DNA of 41,038 nucleotides from Phenylobacterium sp. (GTDB taxonomy: Bacteria > Pseudomonadota > Alphaproteobacteria > Caulobacterales > Caulobacteraceae), in assembly GCA_020402745.1 (NCBI GenBank), contig JADBYZ010000016.1, positions 1-41,038 of the forward strand, read 5' to 3'. The translations under genes were made by a program, and so were the position numbers. Position 1 is the first letter of the stretch; the number at the start of each line of letters is the position of its first letter. The notes beneath the pieces were generated by a model, which was not told where the DNA came from, did not search any database, and was given only the letters and a program-made list of their open reading frames with translations. This document shows, in pieces, positions 25,047-40,877 of this stretch.

Positions 25047-26333
25047 TCACCCGCCCTGGCTCAGCCGCAGGGCGGCCGAGCGGGCGTGCGCCGGAAGGCC
25101 CTCGGCCTCGGCCAGGGCGACAGTGGGCGGGCCTAGCACGGCGAAGCCCGCCGCGCCGGCCTTCACCAGCGAGGTGCGCTTCAGGAAGTCATAGAGTGAC
25201 AGGCCCGAGGAGAACCGCGCCGCCCGACTGGTGGGCAGGACGTGGTTCGAGCCCGCCACATAATCTCCCAGGGCCTCCGGCGTGTGCCGGCCCAGGAAGA
25301 TCGCCCCGGCGTGGCGGATCTTCGCCGACAGGGCGTCCGGATCGGCCACGGCCAGCTCCACGTGCTCGGGCGCCAGTCGGTCCACCAGGGTGGGGGCCGC
25401 GTCCATCGGCGCCAGGATCACCGCCCCGTGGTCGGCCCAGGACCGCCCCGCCGTCTCGCCCGTGGCCAGGGTCTTCAGCTGGGCCTCCACCTCGGCGACC
25501 ACCCGGTCCGCAAGGCCTGCGTCATCCGTGATCAGGATCGACTGGGAGGCCGGGTCATGCTCGGCCTGCGAAAGCAGGTCGGCGGCGATCCAGGCGGGGT
25601 CATTGTCCGCGTCGGCCACCACGACGATCTCCGAGGGGCCGGCCAGGGCGTCGATGCCCACCTGGCCATAGACCCGTCGCTTGGCCGCCGTCACCCAGGC
25701 GTTGCCGGGCCCGACGATCTTGTCCACCGGCCGGATCGGGCCGGCGCCATAGGCCAGGGCGGCCACGGCCTGGGCGCCGCCCACTCGCCAGATCTCGCTC
25801 ACCCCCGCCGCCTGGGCCGCCGCCAGCACCGCGGGCTGGAGCCGTCCGGGCGGGGTGACCATGGCGATGCGGCCCACACCGGCGGCGCGGGCCGGTACGG
25901 CGTTCATCAGTACGGTCGAGGGATAGGCCGCCCGGCCGCCCGGCACATAGATCCCCACCGAGTCCAGCGGCGTCCAGCGCCAGCCCAGCTCCACCCCGGC
26001 CTCGTCGGTGAACCGGGCGTCGGCGGGCCTCTGGCGGGCGTGATAGGCCTCGATGCGGCGGGCCGCAAAGGCGATGGCCTCGCGCACCTCGGGGGCGCAG
26101 GCCGCCGCGCCCTCGGCGATCTCTTCGGCGCTGACCTTCAGGCCCGCCGCGTCCAGCTCCACCCCGTCGAAACGTCGGGTGTAGTCCAGCACGGCCTCCA
26201 GGCCCCGGGCCCGCACCGCCTCCAGCACCTCGCGCACGGCGGCGTCCACCGTCTCGGGCGTGTCCCGCCGGGCGTCGGCGAAGGCGCCGAAGCGGGCGTC
26301 GAAATCAGGGTCCTGGAAGTTGAAGCGGCGCAT
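25047..26333 (-). CDS. hisD: Histidinol dehydrogenase
   Basis: A 428-residue zinc enzyme that oxidises L-histidinol to L-histidine, the last two steps of histidine synthesis. Full length. The substrate/zinc residues are visible in SQAEHDPASQSILIT (Gln, His) and APEHVELAV; the nucleotide region includes VGGAQAVAALAYG and KIVGPGNAWVTAAKR. The other his genes are not in the window. The position between DUF2948 and UPF0262 is the usual alphaproteobacterial order. Confidence 0.97.
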   Translation of the reverse strand: MRRFNFQDPDFDARFGAFADARRDTPETVDAAVREVLEAVRARGLEAVLDYTRRFDGVELDAAGLKVSAEEIAEGAAACAPEVREAIAFAARRIEAYHARQRPADARFTDEAGVELGWRWTPLDSVGIYVPGGRAAYPSTVLMNAVPARAAGVGRIAMVTPPGRLQPAVLAAAQAAGVSEIWRVGGAQAVAALAYGAGPIRPVDKIVGPGNAWVTAAKRRVYGQVGIDALAGPSEIVVVADADNDPAWIAADLLSQAEHDPASQSILITDDAGLADRVVAEVEAQLKTLATGETAGRSWADHGAVILAPMDAAPTLVDRLAPEHVELAVADPDALSAKIRHAGAIFLGRHTPEALGDYVAGSNHVLPTSRAARFSSGLSLYDFLKRTSLVKAGAAGFAVLGPPTVALAEAEGLPAHARSAALRLSQGG

Positions 26334-27160: not shown

Positions 27161-27235
<75 letters not shown>

Positions 27236-30371: not shown

Positions 30372-30736
30372 CACAGTCTCCGTTCAATCTCGTGTCCCGC
30401 CCGCCGGTAGCCAAAGGGCGCCAGCACCCGGGCCCAGCCCTTCCGTCCGTCCAGGGTGATCCGCCGGCAGCCCGCCCCCCGGGCCCAGGCCTCCAGGCCC
30501 GGCCTCAGGGCCAGCACGGCCGAAAGCCGCCCCGCCGCCAGCCAGACGTGCAGGCAGGGCCCGTCAGGCTCGGCCGCCAGCTCGGTGGCCAGCACGGCGC
30601 CTTCGCCCATCCAGATCCGCGCCCGCCCGCACCTCAGCGCCTCGGCCAGGTCCGCCGGTCCGGCGTCCGCCGCCAGGGCCTCCAGCGCCAGGGCCAGCGC
30701 CTCCCGGTCGCCCTCGCTCAGCGGCGCCTCACTCAT
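30371..30736 (-). CDS. GNAT-like phage virion protein
   Basis: A 121-residue protein whose C-terminal half, WARGAGCRRITLDGRKGW followed by RVLAPFGYRR, has the beta-strand/helix pattern of the acetyltransferase-like proteins found in podovirus virion operons (T7 gp13 neighbourhood). No clear acetyl-CoA P-loop (Q/RxxGxG/A) is seen, so it is probably structural. Both ends overlap its neighbours (ATGA and TGATG), showing tight translational coupling. Confidence 0.55.
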   Translation of the reverse strand: MSEAPLSEGDREALALALEALAADAGPADLAEALRCGRARIWMGEGAVLATELAAEPDGPCLHVWLAAGRLSAVLALRPGLEAWARGAGCRRITLDGRKGWARVLAPFGYRRAGHEIERRL

Positions 30737-32241
30737 CGGCCCCCCGCCGGCGCCAGGTCAAAGACCAGCTTCCCGATCCGTCCCGCCGTGGGCGAGGCGT
30801 CGCCGCTCAACCGCACCCGGAACAGCCGCCCCGACAGCCTCAGGTCCGCCCGCGCCTGTCCCGGCGCCAGGGCGGCCGGCGGCGCGCGCCGCTCAGGCCC
30901 CTGCGGCGTGCGCCGGGCCGAGATCTCCAGCACCACCGGCCCCTGCTGCCCGGCCAGGTCCGGCCAGACCCCGCGCACCAGGGCCGTGCGGTCCTCGTCC
31001 AGCACCTGGTCGGCGCTCTCCAGGAACCAGGCGAAGGGCGCCCCGTCCGCGCTCGCCCCCCGCTCGCACCAGAACATCGAGCCGTCCGGCGCCGTCGCCA
31101 CGGGATGCTCAGCAGGCCCGGCGTCGATCATGGCGGTGCGCGGGGTCGCCCCCCGGCTCCAGGCCCCGTCCGCCAGGGACAGCACCAGGCACCGGCTGTT
31201 CTCGGCCCCCTCGCGCCGGTCGGGATAGTCGAACCGCACCTCGGAAAAGGCCGACAGGGTCGAGGCGAACACCTTGTCCCCCTGCCCCGCCGCCAGGTTC
31301 TCGGCCAGGTCCGGTCTTAAGGGACAACTCAGCGACTCCGGCGCCCCGCCCAGGGCATAGCGCCAGACCTGCAGGTCCGGCCCCAGCCAGAAGGCCGTCT
31401 GCCCGCTCACCGTCGCCGCATTGGGGCCGATCAGGCCGCAGGCCTGCCCCACCCGGTCGAACCGCCAGGGCTGGCCCGGACTGCCGGTGAATACCCCCAG
31501 GAACAGGGCGTGGGTCGTCCAGACCAGCAGGTGCGACCCCAGGGTCCGCCCGCCCACGATCCGACCGCCGCCGGGCAGCACATATTCCCGCGCCGTGGTG
31601 TCCGGCGCCGTGGTCCACTGGTCCAGCCGCCGCACCCCGCCGTGCCGGATGCACAGGGGGTTGAAGACGCCCGAGGTCTCCTCATTGCAGCCCAGGGCGA
31701 AGACCTGGTCCGTGGCCGAGACCAGCATGGCGCTCATCCGCGCCGGAGCTCCCGCCAGGGCCCGGGCCCGTCCGCCGCTCGCCGGCGACCATTGATAGAG
31801 CGTGCCGTCCCTCGGCGCGGCCAGCAGGGTTTCGCCCCAGGCCGCCAGCGACCAGGTGCGCGGCGCCAGCTCCCCGTCCGAGGGCTCCGACCAGGCCCCG
31901 GCGCCCCAGGCGCCCGTGCCATAGCCCCGCCCGCCTGAACCGTCCGCCGCCCCGGGCGCCAGGCCCTGCGGCGTGGCATCCGCCAGCTCCCCGCCGCGCC
32001 AGACCTCCAGCCGCGACGGCCCGCCAAAGGCCAGCATCAGCCCCCCCGACAGGTCGCTCCAGCCCAAAAGGCCCCGGCACGGCCCGTCCAGCCGCCCGGG
32101 ATGCAGCCGCTCCCAGCCCCCGATCACCTGGGGCCGCCCCCGCCAGAACCGGATGTTGGACCCGTCGGCCCAGCGCCCCGCCGCCGCAAACGAAGTGTCA
32201 TCCGCCGCCAGCCCGGGCGGCGGGTCGAGTGTGAAACGCAT
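30733..32241 (-). CDS. Phage tail/stopper protein, P22 gp10-like beta-propeller type
   Basis: A 502-residue beta-rich virion protein. The N-terminus GRWADGSNIRFWRGRPQVIG matches the start of podoviral DNA-stabilisation/tail-hub proteins (P22 gp10 type, GD-x-IRF-x-x-G-x-P-x-x-IGGW). The rest is made of repeated beta-strand units with tryptophans. It would close the portal channel after packaging. The first ~125 bp of this gene, plus its leader, are duplicated at 33823-33965. A ribosome site GGGAG lies 9 bases upstream. Confidence 0.72.
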   Translation of the reverse strand: MRFTLDPPPGLAADDTSFAAAGRWADGSNIRFWRGRPQVIGGWERLHPGRLDGPCRGLLGWSDLSGGLMLAFGGPSRLEVWRGGELADATPQGLAPGAADGSGGRGYGTGAWGAGAWSEPSDGELAPRTWSLAAWGETLLAAPRDGTLYQWSPASGGRARALAGAPARMSAMLVSATDQVFALGCNEETSGVFNPLCIRHGGVRRLDQWTTAPDTTAREYVLPGGGRIVGGRTLGSHLLVWTTHALFLGVFTGSPGQPWRFDRVGQACGLIGPNAATVSGQTAFWLGPDLQVWRYALGGAPESLSCPLRPDLAENLAAGQGDKVFASTLSAFSEVRFDYPDRREGAENSRCLVLSLADGAWSRGATPRTAMIDAGPAEHPVATAPDGSMFWCERGASADGAPFAWFLESADQVLDEDRTALVRGVWPDLAGQQGPVVLEISARRTPQGPERRAPPAALAPGQARADLRLSGRLFRVRLSGDASPTAGRIGKLVFDLAPAGGR

Positions 32242-32346: not shown

Positions 32347-33750
32347 TCAGGCGCGCCCCAGCGCCGACTCTCGGGGGACGAAGACAAAGTCGCTGTAGGC
32401 TTCGTTGCGGCTGTCTTCCCGAAGGATGTCGTAGCCATACGCCTCGAACAGCGCCAGGACCCGGCGCGTATTGAAGTTCAGCACCTCGATGGACACCGTC
32501 GGTCTCAGGCGGGCCAACACGTCCCGGGCGCCCTCCAGCACCCCCGGCTCACCGCCGTCCACGTCGATTTTCAGAAGGGCGCATTCCGGCAGGGCCAGGC
32601 TGTCCAGGGTCAGGCAGGGCGTCAGGGTGGCCCCGTGTTCGGTTCCCGGGGTCACGAACGAATAGTCATCCCTCACAAACTGGAACGGGATCTCCCCCAC
32701 ATAGGATGTCACCGCCTTGCCCAGGTGCGAAAGATCGACCTGGCCGCCCAGCCCGTTCATCTCGATCGTGTTCCGGAGATGATCGGCCATCCGGGGATTG
32801 CACTCGAAGGCGACCACCCGGCACCCTGCTTCGCCGGCGAAATAGACGGTGTGGTTGCCGAGGTTCGCCCCCACGTCCACCACGGTCTGCCCCGGCCGGA
32901 CCAGCGCCCGAAGGGCCTCCAGCGCCGGCTGCTCGTAGAAGCCGCCCGCCACCTGCGGCAGGGCGACTGAGAAATTCGTCGCCACGAAGGGGAATCGCCA
33001 GGTTCTCCCCCCCCCCCGGATTTCCACAGTCTCCCGGCCCTCCAGCAGACCTCTCGCCAGCGCGGCGGTGGAGGCGGGAACGGCGCTGATCTCCGCCAGG
33101 TAGCGCTGCACCCGGTCCCGGTCCACCATGGCGATGGCGGCCTGCAGCGCCGTCTTTCCCTGACGGCGCACCCCCGGGTGAATGGGCGCCTTGGCGTCGT
33201 AGTGGGCGACCACGGCGGCCATGTCGCCAGACGCGAACAGCTGGCTGGTCCTCTGGGTCTCAACGTCCTCGCCCATGGCGGTCAGCCGGTCCAGCAGGGC
33301 CAGGGCCCGGTCATGCTCAAAGCGGGCCTGAGCCATAAGCAGATCGACCTTGAGATCCGAGGCCTCCGCCAACGGAAACCCGGCGGTGCGCTCCAGGGCC
33401 TCGGCGGCCTCATCCACCCGATTGATCCGGATCAGGGCGATGGCGCCGTTGATGTGGTGCACCCGGTTCAGCTGACGCTCGCCGCGCACATCCCGATAGA
33501 TCCGGGCCGCCGTCTGGAAGTTCCCCTGGACGAGAAGCGCCCGAAAGAGTGTGTTGAGCGCCGAGCTCGAAAGCCGATTCTGCTCAAAAGCCCGATGCGC
33601 AAAGAACAACTCGTCCGCCGGCTGTCCCATCCGGCGAAAGACAATCGCAAGATCGTTCGAGGCGTCCGAGCCGCCCCGGTCCGAAAGCGGCCGCAGATGC
33701 GCGACCACATCGGCCCAGCGCTCTTCCTCGATAGCTTTGCGGATATCCAT
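32347..33750 (-). CDS. FkbM family methyltransferase with N-terminal TPR-like domain (phage cargo)
   Basis: A 467-residue protein. Residues about 1-250 are alpha-helical repeats of TPR type (WADVVAHLRPLSDRGG, then NDLAIVFRRMGQPADELFF). Residues about 285-455 are an FkbM SAM methyltransferase: motif I VVDVGANLGNHTVYF near 290, an acidic motif II end (VVAFECNP) and the FkbM signature LLKIDVDGGEPGVLEGA. FkbM enzymes usually O-methylate sugars or small molecules. The start at 33750 is favoured by GGAAG upstream; an in-frame TTG at 33786 has no ribosome site. It lies in the virion operon between two copies of the gp10-like 5' end, so it is an inserted gene. Role in surface-glycan change is inferred. 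Confidence 0.85.
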   Translation of the reverse strand: MDIRKAIEEERWADVVAHLRPLSDRGGSDASNDLAIVFRRMGQPADELFFAHRAFEQNRLSSSALNTLFRALLVQGNFQTAARIYRDVRGERQLNRVHHINGAIALIRINRVDEAAEALERTAGFPLAEASDLKVDLLMAQARFEHDRALALLDRLTAMGEDVETQRTSQLFASGDMAAVVAHYDAKAPIHPGVRRQGKTALQAAIAMVDRDRVQRYLAEISAVPASTAALARGLLEGRETVEIRGGGRTWRFPFVATNFSVALPQVAGGFYEQPALEALRALVRPGQTVVDVGANLGNHTVYFAGEAGCRVVAFECNPRMADHLRNTIEMNGLGGQVDLSHLGKAVTSYVGEIPFQFVRDDYSFVTPGTEHGATLTPCLTLDSLALPECALLKIDVDGGEPGVLEGARDVLARLRPTVSIEVLNFNTRRVLALFEAYGYDILREDSRNEAYSDFVFVPRESALGRA

Positions 33751-33796
33751 GGGGGCTTCCGTAGATGTTGAATCAGAATTGAGCAACGTTATGCAA

Positions 33797-33949
33797 TCAA
33801 AGCGGCAGGATACTGCTCTCTAAGCCCCCGATCACCTGGGGCCCGCCCCGCCAGAACCGGCTGTTGGACCCGTCGGCCCAGCGCCCCGCCGCCGCAAACC
33901 AAGTGTCATCCGCCGCCAGCCCGGGCGGCGGGTCGATTGTGAAACGCAT
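33797..33949 (-). pseudogene. Truncated copy of the gp10-like gene start
   Basis: From ATG 33949 the minus strand encodes about 42 residues nearly identical to the N-terminus of the gp10-like protein (AADDTWFAAAGRWADGSNSR, then GGPQVIGG), then eight unrelated residues and a stop. It is a fragment created by the duplication and could still be translated as a 50-residue peptide. Confidence 0.85.
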
Positions 33950-33965
33950 GGTGAAGGCTCCCGCG
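33823..33965. repeat. Direct repeat copy 2 (truncated gp10-like 5' end)
   Basis: The 143-bp partner of 32115-32257 with about seven mismatches. It lies directly upstream of the FkbM gene and downstream of the opposite-strand methyltransferase start region. Confidence 0.92.
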
Positions 33966-34047
33966 GGTTTGCGCCGTGAGGTGGGTCAAGCTATTCGGAA
34001 CGTCCGGGGCCCATCGAACGGGGGCGAATGGCTACTGAGGCACGCAA

Positions 34048-34710
34048 ATGACCGAACAGGCGCCCACCACTGAACCTCAGTATGAGTTCACCCGGGACTG
34101 GTTCAGTCAGAACGTCCCGGTTTGGCGTCAAATCATTAGTCGCGATAAGCCGACCAGAATCCTCGAGATCGGATCCTTCGAAGGTCGATCGACATGTTGG
34201 ATCATCGAGATGTGCACGGAGCACGCCCAATCAGGGATCGAGGTCTATTGCGTCGACACCTGGGAGGGTGGCATCGAACATCAAAAGGGCGGTCAAATCG
34301 AAACCCAGATGTCCGAGGTTGAGAGGCGTTTCGATCACAACGTTTCGGTCGCAAGGGGGAAGACGCCCCACCCTACGAACATCCACAAAATCAAGAAGTA
34401 CTCCAATCATGGCCTCCCCGACCTAATGGCGAGCGGGAAGTATGGGTTCTTTGACCTGATTTACATTGATGGCTCGCACCAGGCTCCGGACGTTCTGACC
34501 GATGCAGTCATGTCCTTTCAACTCCTTAGGGTTGGTGGGGTCATGATCTTCGATGACTACCTCTGGTCGATGGACAAGCCGGGGTTTCAGGACGTGCTCA
34601 AAATGCCGAAGCCAGCGATTGATGCCTTCATCAACATCTTCCAGCGGAAAATGTCCGTGTTCTTTGGTGCACCAATCGGGCAACTCTACACCCGGAAGAT
34701 CTCCGACTAG
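34048..34710 (+). CDS. Class I SAM methyltransferase (Methyltransf_24-like), foreign composition
   Basis: A 220-residue methyltransferase with motif I RILEIGSFEGRSTCW, an acidic motif II region (VYCVDTWEGG), and the strand/Asp segment LIYIDGSHQAPDVLTD with VGGVMIFDDYLWSMD, typical of Methyltransf_24. It is the only rightward gene inside the leftward virion operon. Its composition is unlike its surroundings: 34081-34140 has 30 G/C in 60 bases, against 42 of 60 in 38281-38340 of the coat gene. A ribosome site GAGG is 8 bases upstream. A 7-codon reading frame (34028) ends in the start codon (ATGA). Its stop shares CTAG with the stop of the convergent fibre gene. Likely a recently acquired cargo gene. 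Confidence 0.83.
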   Translation: MTEQAPTTEPQYEFTRDWFSQNVPVWRQIISRDKPTRILEIGSFEGRSTCWIIEMCTEHAQSGIEVYCVDTWEGGIEHQKGGQIETQMSEVERRFDHNVSVARGKTPHPTNIHKIKKYSNHGLPDLMASGKYGFFDLIYIDGSHQAPDVLTDAVMSFQLLRVGGVMIFDDYLWSMDKPGFQDVLKMPKPAIDAFINIFQRKMSVFFGAPIGQLYTRKISD

Positions 34711-36645: not shown

Positions 36646-36891
36646 TCAGATCTCCTGTCCGGTGTCGTGACGGATCCAGCGGACCCCGTCGGAATGGGCC
36701 AGGACCCCCAGGTCCCGGACCAGGATCATCCGCCAGGGCCAGGCCGAGGCGGGGGGAAGGTCGGCGCGCAGGCAGGCGGCCGCGGGCATGGGGGCGCTCG
36801 GCGCCTCCAGGGCCCTCAGGGCGTCCAGCATGGCCGCCAGCAGGGGGCGCAGGGCCGGCGGGGCGCCGGGCCCCGGATCGGCGGGGATCAT
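36646..36891 (-). CDS. Small phage protein, function unknown
   Basis: An 81-residue protein, Ala/Pro-rich at the N-terminus with a C-terminal segment WRMILVRDLGVLAHSDGVRW that resembles small proteins encoded with podoviral tail genes. It overlaps the adaptor gene (ATGA) and abuts the next gene, so it is translated as part of the operon. Confidence 0.6.
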   Translation of the reverse strand: MIPADPGPGAPPALRPLLAAMLDALRALEAPSAPMPAAACLRADLPPASAWPWRMILVRDLGVLAHSDGVRWIRHDTGQEI

Positions 36892-37469
36892 CGCCGGGGC
36901 TCCAGCATCGCGGTCAGGCTCGGGTCGACCCTCAGCGGCGAGGCGCCGGCGATCCGGGCCTCGCGCATCCGCGCCTCGGTCAGGGCCGCATCGAAGCGGG
37001 CGGCGAAGACGGCCAGCATCTCCCCGTCCCGCAGGAAGGGCGCCGCCTCGGCCAGGGCGCCGAACAGGTAGAGGTCCGGGTGCTCGGCCAGAACGGGGTT
37101 GGCCGGCGCCGCCTCGCTCAGCCGCGGTCGGGCCCGATAGGTCAGGACCAGCCGCACCGGCGCCTCCGGCGGCGGCGTCAGCACCAGCCGCCCGGCCTCG
37201 GCGCGAAAGCCCTGGGCCGCCCCATCCCCGTCCCCGGCCCCGGCCCGGACCAGGGACAGGGCGTCGCGCAGGTCGGCGGGGGCGGTCAGTTCGGCCTGCC
37301 CGGCCCCGGCCTCCAGCTCCACCCGCGCGGTCAGGGCCGAAAAGCCCATCAGCCGGTTCAGCCGCGCCTCGGCCAGGGCGATGAAGTCGCCGGTCCGGCC
37401 GGACAGGTCCTCCCGGTCCAGCCAGTCGGCCACCGCCGCCTTCAGGTCGTCATAGGTGGCCAGCCCCAT
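36888..37469 (-). CDS. Phage head-tail adaptor protein
   Basis: A 193-residue protein. The start TYDDLKAAVADWLDREDL followed by DFIALAEARLNRLM is the common N-terminus of podovirus adaptor/connector proteins (T7 gp11 or P22 gp4 position) that sit below the portal. It is the first gene after the coat protein. AGGAG lies 8 bases upstream. Confidence 0.72.
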   Translation of the reverse strand: MGLATYDDLKAAVADWLDREDLSGRTGDFIALAEARLNRLMGFSALTARVELEAGAGQAELTAPADLRDALSLVRAGAGDGDGAAQGFRAEAGRLVLTPPPEAPVRLVLTYRARPRLSEAAPANPVLAEHPDLYLFGALAEAAPFLRDGEMLAVFAARFDAALTEARMREARIAGASPLRVDPSLTAMLEPRR

Positions 37470-37570: not shown

Positions 37571-39096
37571 TCAGTTGCAGGCCAGGCGGCAGGCCAGCTG
37601 CGGGCGCAGGGTCCGGTAGCCGTAGAGGACGTCCAGCCGGCAGGGGAACCTGTCGCTGTTGATGTCGTACTGGCGCACGATCCGCATGGAGATCCCGTCA
37701 AAGGTCTGCCGGGCCGAGAAGTCGACGCCCCGGGGCATCACCAGGTCCGCCGTCGCAAAGGCGAAGGCGCTCTTGTGATAGAGCATGGACAGGCCGTGCG
37801 GCGTGTTCACCGCCCCCGCCACCGTGATCGGCGAGGCCGCGTTGGTGGTCGCCATCGTCACCGTCTGCTGCGGGCCCGCGGTGATGATGGGCGGCGAGAT
37901 CTGCACTGCGCCCGCCCCGCCCGGATGGGCCTGGGTCACCACGAACTGCTGCTGCACGCCGGTGCTGACCTTGGTCTCCGGGTGCACCCGCATGACCCCG
38001 GCGATGATGAAGACATCGCCCTTGGCCAGGCTCCCCGTCCCCGCCGCCACCGTGATGGCGTTCACCGGGTTGGGGCTGGCCGGCAGGGCGGCCGGCAGGG
38101 TGTTGGTGGTGTAGCCGGCGCCGCCGCCGCGCAGGTGCGCCGGCCAGAGGGTGTTCTCCATGAAGTCGAACCCCGCCGTGCGGCCCATATAGCCCTCGCG
38201 GTACTGCTTGGCCACGGCGTCGGAGTCGTTGAACAGGCCCTTCAGGGCGTCCACCAGGTCCATATTGTCCTGGGTGTTCAGGTTGGCCGTGCGGCCGCCC
38301 AGGGGCGCCAAATTGTCCACCAGGATCTTCCGGCCCTGCAGCACCTTCTGGAAGGTGGCCGCCGAGCCCTGGCTGTTCACCTGGTTGGCCACGTCCTGGT
38401 ACATGGTCATGGCGTCGGCCTCGATGGAGGCGGCCAGCACGCTCATGGCCGGCTCCAGGACCCGGTCGGAAAAGTCGTCCAGCCCCATGGTCAGGTCGAC
38501 GCTGGTGAAGTTCAGGTCCACCCCCCTCTGGGTCGCCACCTTCAGCTCCACGCTGGACTCATTGGTGTCCTGGGTCGACAGGGCCGGGCCGGTGCGCACG
38601 GCGTACTGGTTGGGCAGGCGAACCTTCAGAGTGTCGCCGATCTTGGCGCCCTGGCGGGCGAAGCGGTCGTCGTACTCCCTCGAAATGGTGCCGACGAAGT
38701 TCAGTTTCTGGTGCAGGCCTTTGTGTTCACCCCGGGTCGCTGGGCCGGGGCCGCCCTTTCGGGCCGCTGCGGGTTTCCGCCGCAGAGCAGACTATCTCAT
38801 CACCCACGCGGCCCTTTCGGACCCTCGGGGGTGCGATGCGCTTCGGGCCGCTTGGCCCTACTCCCTTGCGGGATAGTCGTTACACCTTCCCGCCCCCGTC
38901 GCCGGGATCGGGCTTGGCTCGGTGTGTCCATGCCGCTCAGGGGCCCGCAGGAGGGGGCGTCCGGGCCCTGGGGCGCGGTTTAGGAGTTCACCGAATTCAC
39001 ATCGTTCTTCGACGCGGGTCGCCCCGCGAAGGCGCCTTAGTCGACGCGCAGGGCCTCACGGGTGACCGTGGCGGCCGTCAGCAGGGAATTGGGCAT
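37571..39096 (-). CDS. P22-like major coat protein, gene interrupted by a group I intron
   Basis: Exon 1 is 39096-39044 (53 nt, after AAGGA 6 bases upstream) and encodes MPNSLLTAATVTREALRV. Exon 2 is 38717-37571. Read straight through, translation stops after 19 codons (TAA at 39039). Removing 39043-38718 joins GT to C and gives ALRVLHQKLNFVGTISREYD with no frame change: 1200 nt, 399 residues. The protein has the P22-type coat pattern: RLPNQYAVRTG, a long helical region with an AASIEADAM segment, YREGYMGRTAGFDF and GDVFIIAGVMRVHPETK. It would form the HK97-fold shell with the scaffold encoded just upstream. Expression therefore depends on splicing. Confidence 0.9.
38718..39043 (-). ncRNA. Group I self-splicing intron (IA-like) in the coat gene
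   Basis: A 326-nt intron without an ORF. The 5' splice site follows U (39044) and the intron ends in G (38718), as in all group I introns. Visible helices: P1 GCGU/GCGC (exon/intron); P2 CGCGGG-GCGA-CCCGCG (39028-39013); P3 CGAUGUG (39004-38998) with CGCAUCG (38840-38834); P4 UCGGUG (38994-38989) with CACCGA (38924-38919); P6/P6a with a GCGA loop; P7 GACUAUC (38878-38872) with GAUAGUC (38796-38790), perfect 7 bp; P7.1 CCC-GCAA-GGG; P7.2 GGGCC-AAGC-GGCCC; P8 CACCC/GGGUG with inner GAAA loop; P9 and P9.2 hairpins. P7.1/P7.2 and the text UAACGACUAUCCC ... AGUAGGG resemble T4-type IA2 introns. Confidence 0.93.
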
Positions 39097-39263
39097 CAGG
39101 GGTCCTTTCCGGGCGGCGCCCGGCTTGAGGGTTCAGGGTTCAGGGCGTTCGGGCGCAGGCCAGGCGGCGGTGCTGGAGGTCTCCAGGTCCGCCCGGCCTC
39201 GCCGGGGCGCGGCGCGAGGTCCCCGGTCAGGGGCCTGCTCGCGACGCGGAAAACTCAGGTCGT

Positions 39264-40109
39264 TCAGGGCCTTGGACGGCGCCGTCCGTTCAGGCCGGCG
39301 GCGTTGCGCCGGCGCATCCACTCCGCCGTCTCCATCCGGTCGTCCAGGCCCGCCGCGCCGCCTCCCGGTCGTCCGGGGTCGGCGGCGGGCCTCACCGCCG
39401 GGCGCGCGGCCCGCCGGTCCGCCTCGGCCAGGCGCCGGGCCAGGGTCTCGCCCAGGTGGGCCCGGTGCAAGATCCGCCACAGGCGCGCATCATTGATCTG
39501 GCGCAGCTCGTCGGCCTCGACGCCGAAGCTGCGGGCATAGTCGGCCAGGTCCGCCGCCAGGGCCGGCGACCAGCCCTCGATCTCCTGCGCCAGGGCCCGG
39601 CCGGTGGCCATCACCGCCTCGGCCTCCTCCGCCTCCTGGGCCAGCCGGGTCTCGTGCTCGCGCCGGGCCAGGTCAAAGGCCGCCCGCTCCCGGGTCTCGG
39701 TCAGGGTGCGCCGCCGCTCGGCCAGGGCCCTCGCCCGCTCCGGGTCCGCCGCCTCCAGGGCCGGCCAGTCCAGCCCCTCCAGCGCCCGGGCCTGCTCGTC
39801 CAGCAGGTGCAGCCGCGCCCGCGCCGCCACATGGGCGCCCGCCGCCTCCCGCTCGGCCTCCATCCGCCGCCTCTGCTCGGCCAGCTCCTGGGTCTTGCGG
39901 GTATAGTCCGCCTGCCGCAGGAAGGCCGACTTCAGCGCCGGCGGCGTCAGGTAAACCTCCCCATCAATCTCGATCTCCCCCCACCCGGACCGGTCCTCCT
40001 CGGCGGGCGCCTCAGCCTCGGGCGCGTCCTCCGGAGCCTCCTCCGGGATCTCCATCTCCGCCACGTCCACGCCCTCAACCGGCCCCTCGTCCAGGATCTC
40101 GTCCGTCAT
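39264..40109 (-). CDS. Phage scaffolding protein (P22-like position)
   Basis: A 281-residue acidic protein with an N-terminal Glu/Asp-rich part (MTDEILDEGPVEGVDVAEME), the segment YLTPPALKSAFLRQADYTRK, a long charged coiled coil (about 85-200) and a basic C-terminus (MRRRNAAGLNGRRRPRP). Highly charged helical proteins with a basic tail directly before the coat gene are the mark of scaffolds; the tail binds coat protein. The start at 40109 has GGAGG 7 bases upstream. It is the first gene of the leftward operon and lies 46 bp downstream of a LexA box. The portal and terminase genes that normally precede it are absent. Confidence 0.75.
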   Translation of the reverse strand: MTDEILDEGPVEGVDVAEMEIPEEAPEDAPEAEAPAEEDRSGWGEIEIDGEVYLTPPALKSAFLRQADYTRKTQELAEQRRRMEAEREAAGAHVAARARLHLLDEQARALEGLDWPALEAADPERARALAERRRTLTETRERAAFDLARREHETRLAQEAEEAEAVMATGRALAQEIEGWSPALAADLADYARSFGVEADELRQINDARLWRILHRAHLGETLARRLAEADRRAARPAVRPAADPGRPGGGAAGLDDRMETAEWMRRRNAAGLNGRRRPRP

Positions 40110-40218: not shown

Positions 40219-40248
40219 GCCATTGACACATACGCCATTGACACATAC
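40219..40248. repeat. 15-bp perfect tandem repeat with TTGACA, higBA promoter/operator
   Basis: GCCATTGACACATAC occurs twice back to back. Each copy has a consensus -35 (TTGACA). The first pairs with TACTTC 17 bases on (40246-40251) as a weak -10. Such tandem copies before a toxin-antitoxin pair could be the HigA operator, which is inferred only. Confidence 0.6.
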
Positions 40249-40600
40249 TTCAGGACGCCTCCAGACCGTCGTGGAAACCCCGGAGTTCCTTCGCCGGGCC
40301 AGGGCGCACCTCACGGAGGCCGAACGCTTCGCCCTGATTGACCGCATCGCCGCAGCCCCGGAGACGGGGACGTCGCTCGGAGCGGGCCTCTGGAAGCTGA
40401 GGTCGCCGCGTCAGGGGGGAGGCAAGCGTGGAGGTTTCCGCGTCGTCTATGTTTTCGGAGGCGTCCACATGCCGATCTTCCTCATCACCCTCTTCGCCAA
40501 GAACGAGAGGGACAACCTCAGCCCAACGGAGCTGGCCGCTGCAGCAGACCTGAGCAGGGCCCTGATCTCATCCTACGGAGAGCCCCATGTCCGCTCATGA
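40238..40600 (+). CDS. higB: HigB/RelE-type toxin
   Basis: A RelE/ParE-superfamily toxin, probably a ribosome-dependent mRNA interferase. The pattern VVETPEFLRRARAHLTEAER, GLWKLRSPRQGGGKRGGFR, VVYVFGG and FLITLFAKNERDNLS is that of HigB-2-like proteins. Start codon is uncertain: relatives begin near the VETPEF segment, where only GTG 40271 is available; TTG 40238 (used here) or TTG 40223 extend it but lie in the putative promoter. Its 3' end overlaps higA by 14 bp. Confidence 0.82.
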   Translation: MTHTSGRLQTVVETPEFLRRARAHLTEAERFALIDRIAAAPETGTSLGAGLWKLRSPRQGGGKRGGFRVVYVFGGVHMPIFLITLFAKNERDNLSPTELAAAADLSRALISSYGEPHVRS

Positions 40601-40877
40601 CAGCCTTGTCCGTGGACTCCAGGAGGCCCTCGCCTTCCGGCGCGGAGAGATCCAGGGCGCGTCGGTCCATCACGTCCGCGTCCCCAACGACGTCGACGTC
40701 GCAGCGATCCGCGCCCGCACCGGCCTTTCCCAGGGCGCCTTCGCCCGCAGCATCGGCGTGCCCCGGGCGACACTTCTCAACTGGGAACAGGGCCGCCGCC
40801 GCCCCACCGGCCCCGCCCGCGTCCTCCTCGCCCTCATCGACCGCCGCCCCGCCCTGGTGACCGAACTGCTGGGCTGA
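40587..40877 (+). CDS. higA: HigA-type antitoxin (XRE family)
   Basis: A 96-residue antitoxin with a C-terminal XRE helix-turn-helix: IRARTGLSQGAFARSIGV, then PRATLLNWEQGRRRPTGPAR. It would neutralise the HigB toxin and repress the pair. GGAG lies 9 bases upstream and the gene overlaps higB, the order toxin-antitoxin typical of hig modules. Confidence 0.9.
   Translation: MSAHDSLVRGLQEALAFRRGEIQGASVHHVRVPNDVDVAAIRARTGLSQGAFARSIGVPRATLLNWEQGRRRPTGPARVLLALIDRRPALVTELLG

Follow-up and report, generated by a model that had tools for sequence, protein, structure and literature searches.

A group IA intron without an endonuclease gene in a P22-type coat gene of a chromosomal Phenylobacterium cluster, and its HNH-bearing relatives at the same coat site

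The split coat gene and its chromosomal setting

The window (the whole analysed stretch of 41,038 nt from Phenylobacterium sp.) is mostly host chromosome, with alaS, recA, hisD and tRNA genes, and carries part of a cluster of phage structural genes in which the coat gene is split in two (Table 1). The cluster runs in the order terminase, portal, scaffold, coat, adaptor and PHROG 3287, an order largely conserved among relatives; in genome G172 the terminase belongs to PHROG 2 and the portal to PHROG 156, and the portal of the window's own genome lies on contig C37. Two further features sit among these genes. A RelE-type toxin and HTH antitoxin pair occupies 40223-40874 (+), and its relatives in G172 lie between portal and scaffold, as presumably it does here; an FkbM-type and another methyltransferase gene stand amid the structural genes at 32350-34707, present in only some relatives as variable cargo.

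Table 1. Features of the split coat gene, its intron and the surrounding cluster, in window coordinates
Feature	Position	Strand	Basis and remarks
Coat gene exon 1	39044..39096	(-)	53 nt; ATG at 39096; 3' end ...CGCGT
Group IA intron without endonuclease ORF	38718..39043	(-)	326 nt; joint analysis and R1 match
Coat gene exon 2, including stop	37571..38717	(-)	P22_CoatProtein / PHROG 283
Internal guide sequence GCGC	39032..39035	(-)	Pairs with exon-1 end GCGU (39047-39044) as P1, 4 bp, closing U.G
P2 hairpin CGCGGG-GCGA-CCCGCG	39013..39028	(-)	Sequence reading; invariant in 7 introns; absent from RNAalifold fold
P3 5' strand CGAUGUG	38998..39004	(-)	R1 alignment; partner 38840-38834
P3 3' strand CGCAUCG	38834..38840	(-)	R1 alignment
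P4 5' strand UCGGUG	38989..38994	(-)	3' strand CACCGA at 38924-38919; R1 alignment and RNAalifold
P7 5' strand GACUAUC	38872..38878	(-)	3' strand GAUAGUC at 38796-38790; letters conserved in R1 alignment; RNAalifold
P7.1 hairpin CCC-GCAA-GGG	38863..38872	(-)	R1 alignment and RNAalifold
P7.2 hairpin GGGCC-AAGC-GGCCC	38845..38858	(-)	R1 alignment and RNAalifold; covaries in other phage introns
P8, outer part variable	38801..38833	(-)	RNAalifold; two-sided changes among 7 introns
P9 hairpin	38767..38785	(-)	R1 alignment and RNAalifold
Scaffolding protein (PHROG 3927)	39267..40109	(-)	PHROG match; same cluster
SU10-type adaptor protein	36891..37469	(-)	Pfam/PHROG profile match; same cluster
Virion structural protein (PHROG 3287)	30736..32241	(-)	Same cluster
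hisD, host flank of cluster	25050..26333	(-)	
tRNA-Thr(ggt)	27161..27235	(+)	3' end toward cluster; probable ancestral attachment site

Read from its ATG without splicing, the coat frame stops after 19 codons (MPNSLLTAATVTREALRVD, then stop). Excision of 39043-38718 joins GT/C in frame (...TREALRVLHQKLNFVGT...) and yields a protein of 399 aa, and the coordinates, frame and joint given in the original prediction were correct. The joint region reads ...TREALRV/LHQKLNFVGT..., with the insertion lying within codon 18 of the P22-type coat gene; exon 2 by itself matches both Pfam P22_CoatProtein (PF11651, 1.7e-33) and PHROG 283 major head protein (1.7e-70). The predicted U before the 5' site and G as last intron base are both seen in the sequence. 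A repeated C leaves the intron position ambiguous by 1 nt, and the boundary used here was chosen because the group I rule (U/...G/) selects it over the alternative. The intron has a G+C content of 0.70. A frame that stays open through the whole insert (107-108 aa) was not accepted as a gene.

Detection with Rfam and with a purpose-built covariance model

The original prediction had named a covariance search with Rfam as a possible refutation, and that search produced no match for the window intron: with Rfam release 15, no group I model reached gathering level in the window, and nothing of group I appeared at E<=1, either within 38300-39500 or in seven loci carrying the intron. Thirteen loci carrying other phage introns served as controls: RF00028 was recovered at E<=0.1 in every one, and the gathering score of 50 was reached in eight; the T4 nrdB intron scores 35.7, below that threshold. 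Because five of the 13 control loci also fall below gathering, the miss is taken as a false negative; at the same time, all controls matched at E<=0.1, and the window intron is therefore further from the Rfam model than any of them.

A separate covariance model, R1, rests on an alignment (A1) of seven introns of other phages and contains no Phenylobacterium sequence. The A1 structure was written by hand and comprises 43 pairs, with 98.7% of 299 cells paired; P3 is included among the pairs and P7 and P8 are excluded, P8 because the alignment is poor there. Two-sided changes occur in 21 of the 43 pairs against a shuffled mean of 8.9, a value reached in none of 500 shuffles. With filters off, R1 matches the window at 39004-38767 with 96.5 bits (E 2.1e-24), above its scores on T4 td (73 bits) and T4 nrdB (70 bits), and the second-best match across the 41 kb has 11.9 bits. 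Six other Phenylobacterium loci score 89-102 bits, seven uninterrupted coat loci used as controls give nothing at E<=1, and the window intron is the sole match in its own genome.

Searches with the intron core by blastn lead to phage introns, and in six of 12 such regions the two flanks bear one and the same gene annotation (DNA polymerase, ribonucleotide reductase, primase-helicase). Seven short matches from blastn (24-41 nt) were dismissed as chance. A plasmid search with the intron 3' half gave no match, nor did a degenerate pattern across the intron-exon 2 junction find anything in IMG/VR. Weaker R1 matches (27-44 bits) in 66 other genomes of the family were not accepted as coat introns. 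The two of these that were read, the Caulobacteraceae loci L254 and L257, appear from their letters to have a tRNA-Leu(UAA) gene interrupted by a group I intron, and they are the two of 20 loci scanned that score at or above Rfam gathering for group I. In 23 of the weaker-match loci ARAGORN reported no tRNA, and it misses that of L254 and L257. A stretch of Klebsiella phage KP12 (L187) carries two Rfam group I matches, at 1671-1975 and 625-1296.

Secondary structure of the intron

The helices P3, P4, P5, P6, P7, P7.1, P7.2, P8 and P9 can all be placed on the window intron by sequence reading, and the R1 alignment supports those that it models as pairs (P3, P4, P5, P6, P7.1, P7.2 and P9). RNAalifold applied to the seven Phenylobacterium introns draws P4, P5, P6, P7, P7.1, P7.2, P8 and P9, with two-sided changes in five of 93 pairs; P2 and P3 are missing from this fold, P3 because it crosses P7 in a pseudoknot that the program cannot draw. 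The predicted pairings P3, P4, P7 and P8 and the P7.1/P7.2 arrangement are thus present, each in agreement with the R1 alignment, the RNAalifold fold or both, and the GNRA loops claimed for P2, P6a, P7.1 and P8 are present as read from the sequence. The catalytic core is invariant across the seven Phenylobacterium introns. P1 has only 4 bp, followed by a C.C mismatch, and P10 appears weak on sequence reading; the GC-rich helices could allow misfolding.

HNH-bearing relatives at the same coat site

Scanning IMG/VR with a 44-base intron core recovered 32 contigs, the closest by blastn being L272 (82.6% over 167 nt), L286 and L285 (78%), all at the same site in other P22-type coat genes. Across 12 coat-site contigs the intron 3' half is 72.8-82.6% identical to the window intron. 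Ten contigs, several of them near-identical, retain both exons and have an intron of 758-939 nt in the same phase with an ORF of 177-243 aa; over all coat-site relatives with both exons parsed the length is 747-939 nt, as against 322-328 nt and no ORF in the Phenylobacterium copies. Three scanned intron ORFs match PHROG HNH endonuclease families (1.1e-14, 1.9e-6 and 1.5e-7), and the same ORFs gave no nuclease match in Pfam.

A search with four intron ORFs returned 438 relatives, the best 80 of which were analysed. R1 introns of at least 54 bits are found in 65 of these best 80 HNH loci, and in 64 of the 65 a P22-type coat exon 2 follows, the remaining one being cut by the contig end. In the other 15 the ORF is free-standing beside an uninterrupted coat gene, its stop lying between 26 nt inside and 23 nt before the coat start, 27-76 nt before the intron site. 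Joint parsing covered 82 loci, namely the best 80 together with L381 and L426: 64 could be parsed at the 3' end, 61 of them with exon 1 too, and 57 of the 61 are exact at the same codon with a terminal G. The shortfall reflects misparsing of L299, L306, L309 and L336; with a second pattern, L306 and L336 do show the usual exon 1. Among the 64 loci parsed at the 3' end there are 27 distinct 3' halves below 97% similarity. Among the matches listed for the coat of L264 (80 loci), at least three carry the intron. Among named phages, coat relatives occur in 86 records and relatives of the HNH ORF in 32.

The window intron shares its insertion site exactly with these HNH-bearing relatives, L264, L286 and L288 among them. 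An HNH profile built from four phage relatives and run in six frames at E<=1 found nothing in the window or in stretches of genomes G172, G048 and G042 (loci L201, L202, L205, L206 and L211), and gave strong matches in two control loci. The claim of a T4-like IA group I intron in a P22-type major capsid gene, with no endonuclease ORF of its own, is supported.

A tree of the introns was built from a short 3'-half alignment (about 150 columns), and many of its forks are weak. It unites the seven Phenylobacterium rows in a single clade that adjoins L272 and L296 (SH-aLRT 75.5, bootstrap 99) and then L299 (92, 95). L298 and L300, which also have a coat exon 2, are placed elsewhere, so that either introns invaded the coat gene on more than one occasion or these two rows are misplaced because the alignment is short. 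Exon ends vary by subfamily (GCGU, GGGU, GAGAU), and the guide of each intron fits its own exon end: the guide-exon run averages 5.62 bp over 24 distinct combinations, compared with 4.67 after shuffling of exon ends, and none of 2000 shuffles is as high, on a sample that is not independent since the combinations are related and 17 have a single exon end.

Capsid-gene introns extend beyond P22-type coats: L276 (1424-1600) and L279 (13055-13748) carry group I introns in major head protein genes of a separate family (PF13252, PHROG 334), and the L279 intron contains an HNH-like ORF as judged by eye. Two of the named-phage records were examined as well. In L457 (MW202512.1) an 88-bit intron match at 2142-2279 lies between an HNH-like 'icea protein' ORF and a 'major capsid protein' CDS that is probably missing its start, likely a split capsid gene. 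In L456 (MW202674.1) the annotation divides the P22 coat into two CDS some 220 nt apart (1449-1667), perhaps an intron at a second coat site, where R1 scores just 16 bits.

Distribution, empty sites and selection on the coat gene

Most coat relatives are uninterrupted. Coat loci on genome contigs read through in 55 of 60 cases and carry the intron in five; among the matches listed from IMG/VR, all 80 read through, which over both sets gives 135 of 140 uninterrupted and 5 of 140 with intron. A coat relative is present in 30 of 60 same-genus genomes including the window's own (partial in G011, weak in G024), always as a single match per genome, and was found in none of 40 genomes from four other families of the order; relatives also occur in IMG/VR contigs and in other bacterial families. 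The intron was found in seven of 390 genomes of the family, all seven Phenylobacterium. Genomes G000 and G172 are counted as same-genus by kinship only, and most of the named genomes are MAGs.

In a coat tree of 43 rows (G172 twice), the intron-bearing rows form one clade (100/100) requiring one change, as low a number as in none of 500 shuffles, and this therefore indicates one intron gain. All seven genomes have an exon 1 of 53 nt, with its frame kept and mostly synonymous changes, an intron of 322-328 nt (never a multiple of 3) and a joined coat of 399 aa, with dN/dS of 0.08-0.37 in all 21 pairs of joined coats. Because the joined length is constant while intron length varies, and dN/dS is low, the most economical reading is that the coat gene is in use and hence probably spliced.

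Inheritance of the structural cluster

Of 18 regions, 13 have the cluster next to hisD; the G048 contig breaks off too soon to show it, and in four genomes (G010, G053, G009 and G011) no hisD lies within about 20 kb downstream of the coat gene, so either the cluster lies elsewhere there or the region was rearranged. In the window and in all 13 hisD-linked regions the 3' end of tRNA-Thr points toward the cluster, and this gene is likely the cluster's old attachment site. A second tRNA-Thr(ggt) call inside the G040 cluster region (L224, 16877-16967) is possibly an attachment-site duplicate.

Protein distances of six cluster genes and four host genes correlate in all 24 comparisons, with r from 0.35 (terminase versus UPF0262, p=0.03) to 0.90 (portal versus murA, n=9; adaptor versus murA, n=10) and 0.54 for coat versus hisD (n=13, p=0.001). 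Certain pairs show less divergence in the element than in hisD, with coat distances of 0.03 versus 0.11 (G005-G037) and 0.12 versus 0.22 (G020-G034). Between G000 and G172, nine cluster genes have dS of 0.06-0.27, eight of the nine below hisD (0.217), with UPF0262 at 0.229; the cluster genes compared contain no stops, and every dN/dS is below 0.55. Among 62 tyrosine-recombinase matches in 12 genomes, none lies within the cluster region. The total for G000, as for G048, is two such matches, probably XerC and XerD by name, and G000 has one serine recombinase, on a different contig.

On account of the hisD locus, the absence of recognised integrases nearby and a divergence that roughly tracks host genes, we read the cluster as phage-derived and probably kept mostly by descent with the host. 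It is probably not an autonomous phage and resembles a gene transfer agent (GTA). We do not class it among the GTAs, because DNA packaging and transfer would be conjecture and the capsid type differs from that of alphaproteobacterial type I GTAs.

Proposed splicing and weighing of alternatives

The segment 39043-38718 is a group I intron, an identification that we hold with high confidence, and very probably it is a self-splicing group IA intron without an endonuclease, kin to the mobile HNH family of the coat site. Its splicing is likely. The steps follow the intron family, with structure and sites computed. The exon-1 end GCGU would pair with the internal guide GCGC in the transcript, guanosine bound in P7 would attack after the U, and the released exon-1 end would attack after the terminal G, joining the coat exons in frame; unspliced, the message would halt the ribosome after 19 codons. 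The Phenylobacterium branch may have lost the HNH ORF or never had it, the intron presumably passing on with the chromosome inside the phage-derived structural cluster. We infer endonuclease loss for this chromosomal branch and spread by homing for the phages. Only tentatively do we put forward the full picture, possible but not one that we would lean on: a mobile family at one P22-type coat codon, with its HNH endonuclease free or intronic, whose endonuclease-less branch is frozen in a vertical, GTA-like Phenylobacterium cluster where particle assembly would be splicing-dependent. In the original statement that virion production depends on splicing, 'virion' gives way to 'phage-derived particle, if any', since the coat gene probably does not belong to an autonomous phage.

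The insert might instead be dead and unspliced, with the coat either a pseudogene or read from a start codon inside exon 2, which does hold a GTG-started ORF (37571-38599); set against this, the exon 1 frame is kept with mostly synonymous changes in seven genomes, and intron length drifts while the joined coat stays at 399 aa, the core is invariant and dN/dS is low, so that we regard a dead insert as highly improbable. Translational bypassing as in T4 gene 60 has in its favour the in-frame interruption only; the insert scores with R1 as a group I intron and is more than six times longer than the gene 60 hop, and we give bypassing a negligible probability. Another possibility is a true group I intron that folds and splices only with the help of a protein from the host or a phage. 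Some phage introns fold better with helpers, and the high G+C together with the weak P1 and P10 points in that direction, but the P7.1/P7.2 and P9 layout is that of T4 td, which self-splices, and the scanned window proteins, which represent part of the ORFs, include no recognised splicing factor; dependence on a helper is, in our judgement, unlikely.

The remaining alternative concerns the cluster: an ordinary temperate prophage that re-enters the tRNA-Thr site, or moves between related hosts, would agree with the consistent orientation of that tRNA gene, with relatives in IMG/VR contigs and other bacterial families, with the four genomes without hisD downstream, and with the pairs in which the coat, or most of the cluster by dS, is less diverged than hisD. 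Yet in the 12 genomes searched the cluster region holds no tyrosine-recombinase match, each of the 30 positive genomes has a single coat match, cluster and host-gene distances correlate throughout and the cluster genes are under constraint by dN/dS. We consider a prophage of this kind rather improbable, and prefer the reading of a cluster inherited with the chromosome.

Comparison with known systems

The phage group IA introns (T4 td, nrdB; phiXacJX1, CP1), which we take to be of subgroup IA2, have the same core, P7.1/P7.2 and terminal G as the window intron. The Xanthomonas phages phiXacJX1 and CP1 carry theirs next to the DNA polymerase gene, and that of phiXacJX1 is 72% identical to the window intron over 172 nt. 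The window intron differs from them in its location in a capsid gene and not in DNA metabolism, its lack of an ORF, its 70% G+C and an extended P5. A standard Rfam model can evidently miss such GC-rich phage introns.

The capsid location had been put forward as unusual for phage introns, and here the claim needs qualifying. Mycobacteriophage LittleE is described as having a major-capsid intron whose splicing was proved by RT-PCR and protein sequencing, and lactococcal phage Tuc2009 is cited in the same account for another capsid-gene intron (PMC3706429). On the other side, a 2025 study of Bastillevirinae introns asks why these colonised only core nucleotide and DNA metabolism genes, which account for most split phage genes there (PMC11878797). 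LittleE resembles the window intron in its major capsid gene and U/...G/ boundaries, and its intron is described as 819 bp long in an HK97-like capsid gene, with an opposite-strand LAGLIDADG-related ORF and a class that is unclear, most likely group I (PMC3706429). As far as that description goes, the P22-type coat, the group IA assignment and the HNH ORF of its relatives set the window intron apart. Capsid-gene introns are already known, then, and the family at one coat site with HNH endonucleases appears so far undescribed: we found no description of it in the open-licence literature searched. Specialisation of an intron family on a capsid gene departs clearly from the DNA-metabolism pattern, and it allows the ideas of a 'replication switch' and of a 'conserved essential site' to be weighed against each other.

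There is precedent in principle for free-standing endonucleases that act next to an intron site, and F-CphI is reportedly linked to a psbA intron. This enzyme of cyanophage S-PM2 is described as free-standing (PMC6083498). At the coat site, the free endonuclease, the intron with it and the intron without it offer a natural series for the formation and decay of mobile introns. The chromosomal copies would be, to our knowledge, an unusual example of a bacterial protein gene that has retained a group I intron by descent.

With gene transfer agents the Phenylobacterium cluster shares a chromosomal set of structural genes, signs of vertical inheritance, purifying selection and the absence of recognised integrases nearby. 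Alphaproteobacterial type I GTAs are described as having an HK97-type capsid protein (PMC9662315, PMC6821227), in contrast to the P22-type coat (PF11651) and PHROG 156 portal of this cluster, which may represent a new kind of gene transfer agent.
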